Source: an uncultured Nitrospirales bacterium (GTDB lineage: Bacteria; Nitrospirota; Nitrospiria; Nitrospirales; UBA8639). From it: a stretch of DNA of 64,000 bases. Positions 34,405-38,728 of the stretch are shown here, in pieces. Made by a program: the position numbers and the translations under genes. Under the pieces are notes generated by a model that did no database searches, had not been told where the DNA came from, and saw nothing but the letters and a program-made list of their open reading frames with translations. Numbering within the stretch: the stretch's first letter is position 1; each line of letters starts with the position of its first letter. The stretch covers positions 1,477,914 to 1,541,913 of the forward strand of contig OX638327.1 in NCBI GenBank assembly GCA_951812745.1, written 5' to 3'.

Positions 34405-35412
34405 ATGTTTATCGACCACGCAAGAATTTTTGTCCGGTCCGGCAACGGCGGAAACGGCGGCTGCAGTTTCCGGCGGGAGAAATTCGTCCCCCTCGGCGGC
34501 CCGGACGGCGGTGACGGCGGGAACGGCGGGAACGTCGTGGTCACGGCGTCGACCCGCATGACGACGTTGCTCGACCTGAAGTACCGGCGTCATTATGAGG
34601 CCGAGTCCGGCGCCCCCGGGCAAAAAGCCAATCGCCACGGACGTTCCGGCTCAGACGTGACGATTGCCGTACCGGTCGGCACCGTGATCAAACGTGCGGA
34701 CACCCACGACCTCCTGGCGGATCTGGTGACACCCGAGCAATGCGCCATCGTGGCCGTGGGAGGCAAGGGCGGGAAAGGCAACGCCAGATTCGCGACCTCC
34801 ACGAACCGGGCGCCGCGGACGTTTGGGGAAGGAGTATCCGGCGAAGAGTTGCAGCTCGACCTGGAACTGAAACTCCTGGCGGACGTCGGGCTCGTGGGGT
34901 TCCCGAACGCCGGAAAGTCCACGTTGATTTCCACGCTCTCAGCCGCTCGACCGGAAATTGCCGATTACCCCTTCACGACCCTGCAACCGAATTTGGGAGT
35001 CGTCCCCTGGGGCGAGTACGACAGTTTCGTCATGGCCGACATTCCCGGACTCATTCAAGGCGCCCATAAGGGCAAGGGCCTGGGACATCAATTTCTCAAG
35101 CACATTCAACGGACGCGTTTCCTGTTGTATCTGATCGATATTTCCGAATGGACCACGGATGATCCCGTCAACACGTTGCACGTGTTGCAGGAAGAGCTCT
35201 CCGCATTCGATCACACCCTGGGGCAGCGTGCCTTTGCCGTGGTCGGGACCAAAGTCGACAGCCAGGGTAACGGGCAACGTCACCGCGAGATCCAGCGCTA
35301 TTGCCAGGAACGCCGGATGAACTTTCTCCCGATTTCCTCAGCCACGCGTGAAGGGCTCGACGCCTTACGCGCGTTTATCGGGCAACACCTTCATGAAATC
35401 GAAGCCGCATGA
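34405..35412 (+). CDS. obgE: GTPase ObgE/CgtA
   Basis: ObgE is a ribosome-associated GTPase that acts in late 50S assembly and growth control. The 335-residue protein has the glycine-rich Obg fold (GNGGNGGCSFRREKFVPLGGPDGGDGG, key Gly repeats, residues about 12-38), then the G domain with P-loop GFPNAGKST (about 166-174), DIPGLIQGA (G3, about 212) and TKVDSQ (G4). There is no C-terminal OCT domain, as in many non-Firmicutes. It overlaps proB by 4 nt (ATGA). Confidence 0.97.
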   Translation: MFIDHARIFVRSGNGGNGGCSFRREKFVPLGGPDGGDGGNGGNVVVTASTRMTTLLDLKYRRHYEAESGAPGQKANRHGRSGSDVTIAVPVGTVIKRADTHDLLADLVTPEQCAIVAVGGKGGKGNARFATSTNRAPRTFGEGVSGEELQLDLELKLLADVGLVGFPNAGKSTLISTLSAARPEIADYPFTTLQPNLGVVPWGEYDSFVMADIPGLIQGAHKGKGLGHQFLKHIQRTRFLLYLIDISEWTTDDPVNTLHVLQEELSAFDHTLGQRAFAVVGTKVDSQGNGQRHREIQRYCQERRMNFLPISSATREGLDALRAFIGQHLHEIEAA

Positions 35413-36533
35413 GAGATCTCATCCTCCCACACGCCAAACGGCTCGTCATTAAAATCGGGAGCAGTATCCTGGCCGCCCGGTCGGCGGGATTGCGCCTCGA
35501 CCACGTTCAACGCCTCTCCGGTGAAATCGCCCGGCTCAAGCAGGAAAACCGGGAAATCATCCTGGTGTCGTCAGGCGCCATCGTGGCAGGCATCGGGAAA
35601 CTCGGCCTCAAGTCCTATCCGCAAACGCTCCCCTTGAAACAGGCCGCGGCTTCAGCCGGCCAGAGTTGTCTCATACACGCCTATGAATCCTGTTTCCAGG
35701 AAGCAGGGCAACAAATCGCCCAGGTGTTGCTCACGCATGAAGATCTGGCCGATCGCAAACGTTTTCTCAATGCCCGGCACACCCTCACGACGTTGCTCCA
35801 GTTGGAGGTGATTCCCATCATCAATGAAAATGACGCCGTGTCGGTGGACGAGATCCGTTTCGGCGACAACGACACCCTCGCGGCACAGGTCGCGCATCTG
35901 GTCGATGCGGACCTATTCATTATCCTCTCAGACGTCGACGGGCTGTTCACCCGGGACCCACGGCGCGATCCGGAGGCCACGTTGATTTCACACGTGACGG
36001 AGATTACCCCCGATATCGAAGAAGGAGCGAACACTTCGCAAAGCCAGGAAAGCCGCGGAGGCATGGTGACGAAAATACAGGCGGCAAAACTGGCCCGGCA
36101 ATTCGGGGTCCCGACGTTGTTGCTCAACGGTGAAACCCCGGGCCTGCTGCCGAGCGTCCTTACCGGGTCCGAAGGGGGCACCCTGTTCTTTTCCCAAGGC
36201 CGGAAACTGCCCAGCCGCAAGCATTGGATCGCCTATACGCTCCGACCAAAGGGACAACTCGTGCTGGATCCCGGAGCCGTCACGGCGCTCACCAGCCGGG
36301 GGAAAAGCCTGCTGCCTTCCGGGATCGTCGAAGTGAAGGGAACGTTCGCGGCAGGCGATGCGGTTTCTTGCCTGGATGCGGATGGGAAAGAGTTTGCCAA
36401 GGGATTGGTGAATTTTTCCTCGGACGTCGTCGCCGGGATCAAGGGACGTCGAACCCAGGAGATCGCCCATGAGGCAGGCACTCACGAATATGAAGAAGTC
36501 ATCCACCGGGACAACCTTGCGCTGTTGGTCTGA
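35409..36533 (+). CDS. proB: Glutamate 5-kinase
   Basis: ProB phosphorylates glutamate, the first proline-biosynthesis step and the feedback-controlled one. The 374-residue protein has the amino-acid kinase domain (RLVIKIGSSIL, LVSSGAIVAGIGKLG, INENDAVSVDEIRFGDND, ILSDVDGLFTRDP, GGMVTKIQAAKLA) and a C-terminal PUA domain (about 280-374, starting KGQLVLDPGAVTAL). Both domains are intact, so it is the long bacterial form. proA is not in the window. It is translationally coupled to obgE. Confidence 0.96.
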   Translation: MRDLILPHAKRLVIKIGSSILAARSAGLRLDHVQRLSGEIARLKQENREIILVSSGAIVAGIGKLGLKSYPQTLPLKQAAASAGQSCLIHAYESCFQEAGQQIAQVLLTHEDLADRKRFLNARHTLTTLLQLEVIPIINENDAVSVDEIRFGDNDTLAAQVAHLVDADLFIILSDVDGLFTRDPRRDPEATLISHVTEITPDIEEGANTSQSQESRGGMVTKIQAAKLARQFGVPTLLLNGETPGLLPSVLTGSEGGTLFFSQGRKLPSRKHWIAYTLRPKGQLVLDPGAVTALTSRGKSLLPSGIVEVKGTFAAGDAVSCLDADGKEFAKGLVNFSSDVVAGIKGRRTQEIAHEAGTHEYEEVIHRDNLALLV

Positions 36534-36565: not shown

Positions 36566-37246
36566 GTGAGCGATTCCCCTTTCACTCGAATTGGTTTACT
36601 GGGTGGGACATTCGACCCCGTTCACAACTGTCACCTGTCGATAGCCAGGCAAGCGCAGGAAGCGTTGGCGCTCGACCGGGTCATCTTCATCCCTTCGGGC
36701 GCTCCACCCCACAAGTCGGGTGAATTATTGGCCCCGGCGCACCATCGATTGAACATGGTGCAACACGCCGTCGCGGATCTGCCGGACTTCACGGTCTCCG
36801 ACGTGGAGGCCAGCGCGCCGGATACATCCTATACCATCGATACGTTACGAACGCTTCGGGAAACCGTGAAAGGTGAACTCTGGTTTATCATCGGTCTGGA
36901 TGCGTTTCTCGAAATTGCGGGATGGAAATCGGCCGACACCTTATTGACCTTGACGAACTTTCTCGTGCTGTCGCGGCCGGACGTCCCCTTTTCCCGAGTG
37001 GCCTCGCTGGCGCTGTTGCCTTCCCTGCCGGGCGAGCAACTGCACCGTCTGGACGACGGTCATCAACGCCGCCTGGATCTCCCCCTCGGCCCACAGGCCA
37101 CGGTCACGTTGCTGCGGATCGATCCGTGTGGGGTCTCCTCGTCCGCGGTTCGAGAACGAATCCGGAAGGGTGCGGACGTCACAGACTGGTTGCCACCCCC
37201 AGTCCATTCTTATATAATCCGACACAACTTGTACGTCCCGCGTTAA
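36566..37246 (+). CDS. nadD: Nicotinate-nucleotide adenylyltransferase
   Basis: NadD makes deamido-NAD from nicotinate mononucleotide and ATP; the amidation is done by NadE, encoded at the right end of this window. The 226-residue protein has GLLGGTFDPVHNCHLSIARQAQE (GxFDPxHxGH-type motif, residues 9-31; the second His-x-x-His partner is N-C-H-L) and the C-terminal ISSSxxR-like VSSSAVRERI. The start codon is GTG at 36566. The order proB-nadD-rsfS matches many Gram-negative genomes. Confidence 0.93.
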   Translation: MSDSPFTRIGLLGGTFDPVHNCHLSIARQAQEALALDRVIFIPSGAPPHKSGELLAPAHHRLNMVQHAVADLPDFTVSDVEASAPDTSYTIDTLRTLRETVKGELWFIIGLDAFLEIAGWKSADTLLTLTNFLVLSRPDVPFSRVASLALLPSLPGEQLHRLDDGHQRRLDLPLGPQATVTLLRIDPCGVSSSAVRERIRKGADVTDWLPPPVHSYIIRHNLYVPR

Positions 37247-37257
37247 GGAGCCGCCCT

Positions 37258-37671
37258 ATTTCAGACGTCAAACGCAAAGCGTTGCTCATCGGAGGAATCG
37301 CCCTTGATAAAAAAGCCTCCGACGTCATGGTCCTGCAAATAGGACACCTCACCTCGATTGCCGACTATTTTGTCATTTGCTCCGGAAATTCAGGACGACA
37401 GGTCAAAGCCATTGCCGAGGCCATCCGGCAGGAAATGGCGCATCGGTTCGGGAACCACGGCACGATAGAGGGAGAAACCGCGGCAAACTGGATCCTTCTC
37501 GATTATCGGGACATCATCGTTCATGTGTTCCGGGAAGAGAGCCGTATCTATTACGGCATCGAGAACATGTGGAGAGACGCCCCGCAAATCCCGCCGACGG
37601 AATATGACTTGCAGGCCCTTGGGCACCTGTTGTCGGAACCACCCACGAAGATGGTTCCTCAAGCCAGCTAA
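37258..37671 (+). CDS. rsfS: Ribosomal silencing factor RsfS, apparent ATT start
   Basis: RsfS binds L14 and blocks subunit joining under starvation. The protein (about 137 residues) has the full domain: ALDKKASDVMVLQIGHLTSIADYFVICSGNSGRQVKAIAEAI (key residues DYFVICSG-S-RQV-AIA) and WILLDYRDIIVHVFREESRIYYGIENMW. No ATG, GTG or TTG lies where the family starts. An ATT at 37258 has AAGGAG exactly 7 nt upstream (37245-37250) and gives a normal N-terminus. The only alternatives are far upstream inside nadD or an internal TTG at 37282 without a good ribosome-binding site. It follows nadD after 11 nt. Confidence 0.9.
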   Translation: MSDVKRKALLIGGIALDKKASDVMVLQIGHLTSIADYFVICSGNSGRQVKAIAEAIRQEMAHRFGNHGTIEGETAANWILLDYRDIIVHVFREESRIYYGIENMWRDAPQIPPTEYDLQALGHLLSEPPTKMVPQAS

Positions 37672-37717: not shown

Positions 37718-38728
37718 ATGACTCGATTCGACGTTCTCGCGGAACAGGTCCTGCAAGGCCATTCGGTCACCCGTGAAGAAGGCCTGGGACTGCTTCAAAC
37801 CGACGACGCCAGCCTTTTGCCCCTTGTCAATGCCGCGTATACGATTCGTCATGCCCACTTTGGCCGAAAAGTCACCATTCAAATGTTGTTCAACGCCAAA
37901 AGCGGCGCCTGCCAGGAAGATTGTCATTATTGTTCGCAGTCCAGTATCTCCACGGCCCCGATCGACCGCTATGCGTTGGTGTCCCCGGAGGAAATGCTCA
38001 AGGCCGCCCGCCAAGCCCATGAGGCCAAGGCGGAACGGTATTGCGTGGTGATCAGCGGAAGAAGTCCTCTCGAAAAGGAAGTGGACGACATCGCCTCGGC
38101 GGTGACACGGATCAAACGGGAACTCCCGATGCAGGTCTGCTGCTCCCTGGGACTCCTCACCGAACCCCAGGCCAGACGACTCAAAGCCGCCGGGGTGGAT
38201 CGCATCAACCACAACCTGAACACGAGTGAAGCCTATCACTCCTCTATCTGCACGACCCATACGTATCAGGATCGGATGACTACCTTACGAAATGCACGAG
38301 CCGCGGGCCTGGAACTGTGTTCGGGCGGGATCGTCGGCATGGGAGAATCCGACGAGGATCTCGTGGATCTCGCCCTTGCCCTCAAGGACGTCAACCCCGA
38401 CTCGATCCCGTTGAACATGCTGCACCCGATTCCGGGAACCCCCTTGGCCGACGCTGGACACCTGACCCCGCAACGGTGCCTGAAAATCCTCTGCCTGTTT
38501 CGCTTTATCCATCCGCAAAGAGAGTTGCGCGCGGCGGGGGGGCGGGAATTCAATCTCCGGTCCCTGCAACCCATGGCCCTGTACGTGGCGGACTCGCTGT
38601 TCGTGAACGGCTATCTGACGACACCGGGACAACCCGGCCAGGAGGTCGAACGAATGATCACAGACATGGGCTTTGAAGTGGCGGGACAGAATCCCGCCGT
38701 ACCTAATTCCCCGGTCACAGCCAGTTGA
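37718..38728 (+). CDS. bioB: Biotin synthase
   Basis: BioB is the radical-SAM enzyme that inserts sulfur into dethiobiotin. The 336-residue protein has the 4Fe-4S site C-x3-C-x2-C in GACQEDCHYCSQS (about 60-72), VCCSLGLL, HNLNTSEAYHSSI and CSGGIVGMGES, which carry the 2Fe-2S cysteines, and the Arg-containing GGREFNLRSLQP. GGGAG sits 7 nt before the ATG at 37718; the frame is open further upstream but that part overlaps rsfS. No other biotin gene is nearby, and I see no BirA operator. Confidence 0.96.
   Translation: MTRFDVLAEQVLQGHSVTREEGLGLLQTDDASLLPLVNAAYTIRHAHFGRKVTIQMLFNAKSGACQEDCHYCSQSSISTAPIDRYALVSPEEMLKAARQAHEAKAERYCVVISGRSPLEKEVDDIASAVTRIKRELPMQVCCSLGLLTEPQARRLKAAGVDRINHNLNTSEAYHSSICTTHTYQDRMTTLRNARAAGLELCSGGIVGMGESDEDLVDLALALKDVNPDSIPLNMLHPIPGTPLADAGHLTPQRCLKILCLFRFIHPQRELRAAGGREFNLRSLQPMALYVADSLFVNGYLTTPGQPGQEVERMITDMGFEVAGQNPAVPNSPVTAS

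Follow-up and report, generated by a model that had tools for sequence, protein, structure and literature searches.

A putative AUU start codon of rsfS in an uncultured Nitrospirales bacterium and its relation to a non-canonical start site conserved widely in the phylum

The window, by which we mean the whole 64,000-nucleotide stretch of DNA analysed here, carries a gene for the ribosome-silencing factor RsfS within the order obgE-proB-nadD-rsfS-bioB on one strand (Table 1). The sequence at the rsfS start reads cgttAAGGAGccgccctATTtcagacgtc, in which the TAA stop codon of nadD (37244-37246) overlaps the Shine-Dalgarno (SD) motif of rsfS and lies 11 nt before an ATT codon. The first-pass annotation had proposed this ATT as the start codon on the ground that no ATG, GTG or TTG fits. 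As regards ATG this was a judgement, the rsfS frame being open upstream as far as an in-frame ATG at 36922, inside nadD and 112 codons before the ATT, and relatives are therefore required to place the start.

Table 1. Features around the rsfS start site in the window, and infC of the same genome
Feature	Position	Strand	Remarks
obgE	34405-35412	+	Upstream, same strand
proB	35409-36533	+	Upstream, same strand
nadD	36566..37246	+	NF000840 and TIGR00482 above cut-off
Shine-Dalgarno AAGGAG of rsfS	37245..37250	+	7-nt spacer to ATT, from sequence; site kept in 12 congeners
rsfS (ribosome-silencing factor)	37258..37671	+	Reading from ATT gives 137 codons and a stop
Putative ATT start codon of rsfS	37258..37260	+	ATT in 13/13 genus sequences; start-like codon at SD distance
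In-frame TTG, rsfS residue 9	37282..37284	+	Start role rejected
bioB	37718..38728	+	Downstream of rsfS, ATG start; control gene
infC, window's own genome	L111, about 2019-1501	-	ATG, unlike ATC/ATA/ATT in most sampled infC of the phylum

Judged by sequence similarity, the encoded protein is a clear member of the RsfS/iojap family, matching TIGR00090 with 103.6 bits (cut-off 56.9; profile positions 5-99 of 99) and the Pfam family RsfS (PF02410) with 106.2 bits. RsfS prevents the joining of ribosomal subunits from the 50S side (PMC7125091). The two profiles align only from residues 11 and 14, and solved RsfS structures from residue 6 at the earliest (by sequence match to the structure chains), so that the start is not fixed by these alone and the family profiles say nothing either way about residues 1-10. 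The AlphaFold2 model is a confident alpha/beta structure (mean pLDDT 89.2) in which residues 1-10 reach a mean of 92 and a helix spans residues 3-17, residues 2-8 reading SDVKRKA; the sequence also matches solved RsfS chains (for example 6sj6 E, 2e-20).

The ATT is present in all 13 sequences of the genus, comprising the window and 12 congeners in which the region is intact, while a further genome (G002) was left out since its contig ends inside rsfS. Each of the 12 congeners retains the SD and the 7-nt spacer, one of them with GAGGAG. In three of the 12 (L084, L085 and L090) an in-frame TAA lies upstream, and the ten codons between this TAA and the ATT include no ATG, GTG, TTG or CTG. A canonical codon occurs close upstream of the ATT in two congeners (TTG at -5 in L082, GTG at -6 in L089), in both cases at or before the SD. 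Invariance of the ATT within the genus is by itself a weak test, since 20 of 51 amino-acid-invariant columns there are also codon-invariant. The recurrence of the same ATT in 12 other genomes does exclude the point mutation or sequencing error by which the first-pass annotation would have been overturned, and on this comparison the ATT of the window is neither an error nor a private mutation. The proposed start with AAGGAG 7 nt upstream is thus borne out by the sequence and its relatives, and we consider it very likely, on comparative grounds, that the rsfS start site lies at the ATT at 37258.

To place the site in the phylum, Nitrospirota by its named close relatives, an rsfS search was used which matched 288 of 295 genomes; with L048, L094 and L188 left out as too near a contig end and 24 duplicates merged, 204 distinct loci of the phylum and 29 others were examined, the loci being samples, and the edge filter of the closed-frame test then left 203 phylum loci. 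In three of the searches the sample consisted of the best 30 among 60, 57 and 57 genomes matched. A frame was counted as closed where the conserved DKK motif is preceded by an in-frame stop at a distance of no more than 40 codons, and canonical codons were sought between this stop and the position 14 codons ahead of the motif; 66 of the 203 loci fall outside the test. Among the 137 closed rsfS frames, 73 contain no ATG, GTG or TTG before the family core and the other 64 contain a canonical codon. The neighbouring genes contrast with this, as canonical codons were lacking in 1/85 closed frames of nadD, 0/29 of bioB and 0/6 of obgE, where the permitted distance between stop and anchor varies by gene (40 codons, but 70 for bioB). 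The sole exception, L149, is a nadD with no ATG, GTG or TTG in the expected start region.

A looser search, confined to a fixed interval, found no canonical codon in 111 of 204 phylum loci and one in the other 93, although it scores L095 and L099 as canonical when they are better read as ATC. After correction, the codons called in the 111 loci are ATC (35), ATA (27), ATT (19), TTA (19), GTC (4) and GTA (3), with four unresolved, a tally that serves as a reading aid given that the caller was restricted to NUN codons and an all-NUH outcome (third base other than G) is partly built in. The correction concerns six miscalls found on re-reading (L242 to ATA, L249 and L254 to ATC, L187 to TTA, and L160 and L162 left unresolved); the calls at L058, L130, L189 and L262 are arguable. 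Per-codon probabilities were not used, being circular where loci have been grouped by codon. On a quick tree of the 204 sequences the start state (canonical or not) changes at least 33 times, compared with 53-77 times in 200 shuffles, which suggests a state that tracks descent yet flips often and is far from fixed.

Outside the phylum, closed rsfS frames without a canonical codon number 7/15 in the Chloroflexota (the phylum of Ktedonosporobacter), where each of the seven frames has a CTG close to its SD, 2/23 in the phylum of L049, 0/13 in the phylum of L080 and 2/24 among mixed other loci, the last two being L047 and L079, both titled as Chloroflexota groups. The looser search also flags loci in other phyla whose ATG sits just outside its interval, which the closed-frame test avoids. 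In the seven Chloroflexota frames (L308, L310, L322, L324, L325, L330 and L331) CTG is the likely start. Two genomes of the survey gave two rsfS matches each, namely G175 (C1:1539409 and 1590612) and G088 (C73:1275 and C92:52784).

The alignments of individual families, which carry working labels here (f1, f2, f4 and f26 for families, g11 and g12 for genera), show how the site is kept and how it changes. In f1, the family of the window, only three of 27 loci outside the window's genus are non-canonical (L095 and L099 with ATC, L097 with ATT), the remainder having ATG or GTG, except that L096 can be read with either GTG or TTG. The neighbouring family f2, which we guess may be the Nitrospiraceae including Nitrospira, has ATC after AGGAGG or a variant of it in 26/26 sampled loci outside g12, the 11/11 sampled from g11 being among them; in 25 of the 26 the ATC falls in one alignment column, and in L154 it is displaced by an alignment gap. 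In 25 of these f2 genomes none of 23 amino-acid-invariant columns is codon-invariant, which indicates that the ATC is held at the nucleotide level. In g12, GTG stands one codon upstream and AGC replaces ATC in 13/16 loci, while in the other three ATC is retained and the codon upstream is ACG or GCG; the GTG follows GGAGG with a spacer of only 3 nt and is accepted as a start since it and ATC are mutually exclusive in that genus. In f4, ATG (L229) and ATA (L242) occupy one column, and elsewhere ATA, ATT and TTA align with the ATG of relatives in f26, the f26 N-terminus M-D-S-K-E-K-A-L corresponding to I-E-S-K-A-K-A-I and L-E-S-K-D-K-A-L in the non-ATG relatives. A stop codon immediately precedes the called ATT or ATA in L031, L044 and L171. 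Counter-cases are L031, in which an ATG follows the ATT at a distance of six codons, and L253, with a GTG adjoining its ATC. As judged from these alignments, the putative rsfS start codon is non-canonical and, in f2 outside g12, evolutionarily kept. The conservation of the ATT in close relatives, which the first-pass annotation had proposed to check, holds in 12/12 congeners with an intact region; the phylum-wide extent, the variation of the codon (AUU, AUC and AUA, probably UUA and GUC) and the ATG of the genome's own infC lay beyond what that annotation could see.

Apparent UUA starts are the weakest part of the case. TTA stands at SD distance in rsfS of L014, L019, L038, L039, L123, L124, L127, L134, L144, L170, L172, L190, L202 and L204, mostly preceded by CCT or ACT; the CCT is conserved too, with no obvious cause. 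In a set of 20 loci picked for TTA, other leucine columns are codon-invariant in 0/6 cases, a contrast that is the only informative feature of a set chosen in this way. Apparent GTC starts (L158, L159 and L163) and GTA starts (L161 and L181) in other families recall that of Streptomyces sigR. A second gene with UUA may be infC of a Chloroflexaceae MAG (L301), where GGAG-N8-TTA occurs with no clear canonical start N-terminally; this infC matches as two overlapping pieces, and the assembly may be faulty.

The classic gene with a start codon of this kind is infC, and the first-pass annotation had drawn a parallel to it. Among 30 infC loci examined in the phylum many read ATC, ATA or ATT (for example AAGAGG-TGGCCT-ATC in f2), and 19/28 closed infC frames lack a canonical codon, so that rsfS and infC of this phylum often share a third-base-mismatched start combined with an SD. 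This part of the parallel holds, but in the genus of the window infC has an ATG that overlaps or adjoins the stop of the upstream gene in the two genomes looked at (L111 and L282). With an ATG infC alongside an ATT rsfS in one genus, the two genes share a habit in the phylum without being locked in step. The infC start is ATT in E. coli and ATC in Streptomyces (PMC5472188), and infC provides feedback on itself, whereas control of rsfS would act in trans.

A precedent for control in trans is the Streptomyces sigR gene, which starts with GTC behind a AGGAGGTG SD and through this NUH codon places a gene other than infC under IF3 (PMC5472188). The GTC sites called at four rsfS loci are likewise NUH; sigR differs in encoding a sigma factor and in that its repression by IF3 was shown by experiment (PMC5472188), the rsfS case being known here from sequence. 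We propose that the AUU at 37258 would initiate rsfS, guided by the strong SD overlapping the nadD stop, and that it may represent one state of a start site which is kept over much of the phylum with a third base that is often not G, the range being AUC, AUA, AUU and apparently also UUA, GUC and GUA. Such NUH codons are mismatched to the initiator anticodon at their third base, a class which IF3 removes from 30S complexes. Plentiful free IF3 would then keep RsfS synthesis low, and when IF3 becomes scarce relative to 30S subunits RsfS would rise, as for infC, so that one anti-association factor (RsfS, acting on the 50S subunit) would be tied to the other (IF3, acting on the 30S subunit). Such a link is plausible because IF3 disfavours weak codon-anticodon pairs, RsfS blocks joining and sigR provides the precedent in trans.

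According to Katoh and Suga, Watson-Crick pairing at the first two positions of the start codon is required for IF3 to tolerate it, while at position 3 the effect is graded (PMC10158994). The AUH codons fit an IF3-repressed class; UUA and GUC mismatch at position 1 as well, as UUG and GUG do, which counts against them, though GUC is documented for sigR. The E. coli data do not clearly agree with the proposed coupling: rsfS there has a weak UUG start, described as a minor start codon (PMC10917681), which retains the third-base G and is canonical, unlike the NUH codons of the phylum; an rsfS-lacZ fusion reaches its maximum in exponential phase (PMC10917681); and in a rimM mutant IF3 and RsfS rise jointly (PMC13246957), which gives no hint of an inverse coupling in that organism. 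Translation of rsfS from the AUU at 37258 together with IF3 control, taken as one whole statement, appears probable to us. For IF3 control exerted through the start codon, considered separately and by analogy with infC, the balance tips slightly in favour. The broader proposition, that IF3 directly sets the amount of RsfS across the phylum as a homeostatic pair and that UUA is a genuine conserved start in part of it, is tentative and falls somewhat short of an even chance. The position of the start, its conservation, the codon class, the SD and the contrast with the neighbouring genes are readings of genome sequence, while actual initiation at the AUU, repression by IF3 and the physiological logic of the coupling are inferred.

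A hairpin sequestering the SD was considered in view of AAGG...CCTT near the SD in some loci, and was discarded as a general explanation; the SD region is similarly accessible in all classes, its mean probability of being unpaired amounting to 0.50 in canonical loci, 0.51 in ATC, 0.55 in ATT, 0.60 in ATA and 0.54 in TTA loci. A scan of the window for other NUH starts, covering frames of at least 80 codons in which an ATT, ATC or ATA behind an SD comes ahead of any canonical codon, returned five sites, all weak and unconvincing.

The product of pcnB, poly(A) polymerase, is unlike RsfS in function. The pcnB gene of E. coli shares the AUU start of the window's rsfS (PMC9410913), and this AUU is an inefficient start that limits expression according to the title of a work cited there (PMC9410913). 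By the same token the codon in rsfS may be a mere dose limiter, RsfS perhaps being harmful in excess, with no sensing of IF3. Such a start that is simply weak competes seriously with IF3 control as an explanation, and we give this dose-limiter reading somewhat less than an even chance. The exchange of the codon with GTG, TTG or ATG among relatives suits a tuned weak start, as does the UUG of E. coli rsfS. In Staphylococcus aureus, ccpN (AUA) and cvfC1 (AUU) combine conserved non-canonical starts with an extended SD, like rsfS, though they encode a metabolic regulator and a small protein; the AUA and AUU starts there yielded about 10% of the output of AUG when the medium was poor, a precedent for the main reading, and the AUU of cvfC1 is without a medium-dependent effect, which suits a dose limiter (all PMC13009471). 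Against a dose limiter it may be argued that a poor SD in front of GTG or TTG would be enough, whereas the called sites combine an SD with a third-base mismatch, as infC does.

Synthesis of RsfS by coupling or frameshifting from nadD alone, through re-initiation or as a fusion and with an unimportant start codon, is improbable. The nadD stop overlaps the SD, and nadD lies directly upstream of rsfS in 157 scored loci, but in many relatives in-frame stops intervene between nadD and the start, no slippery heptamer is evident by eye, and re-initiation, which may help, would still require a start codon. More improbable still is initiation at the in-frame TTG of residue 9 or further in, giving a shorter RsfS: TTG is a permitted start codon, is present in 9/13 genus sequences and precedes the family profiles, which begin only at residue 11 or later, yet it is CTG in the other four (L084, L086, L092 and L093), has no SD and would cut the predicted helix, and in 46 of the 73 closed non-canonical loci of the phylum the first ATG, GTG or TTG lies at or beyond the DKK motif. 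A sequencing error or a decayed gene, in favour of which it may be noted that the close relatives named are metagenome assemblies, can be dismissed, as 12 other genomes share the ATT with intact frames.

Characterised examples of bacterial genes that start with codons of this kind are very few (PMC5472188). The main text of the S. aureus study of non-canonical starts (PMC13009471) does not contain the term rsfS, and within the open-access full-text literature (PMC, preprints being outside this scope) no report was found of a non-canonical rsfS start beyond the UUG of E. coli. The kind of start is known already, and rsfS appears, on sequence comparison, to join it as a new member that is kept widely. 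UUA is a third-base variant of UUG, and the apparent UUA starts of rsfS would be a new variant which, if confirmed, lengthens the list of natural bacterial start codons. Gene finders limited to ATG, GTG and TTG would misplace starts of this kind. Were a second anti-association factor to use NUH starts throughout the phylum, IF3 would be a candidate for regulating ribosome silencing in trans.
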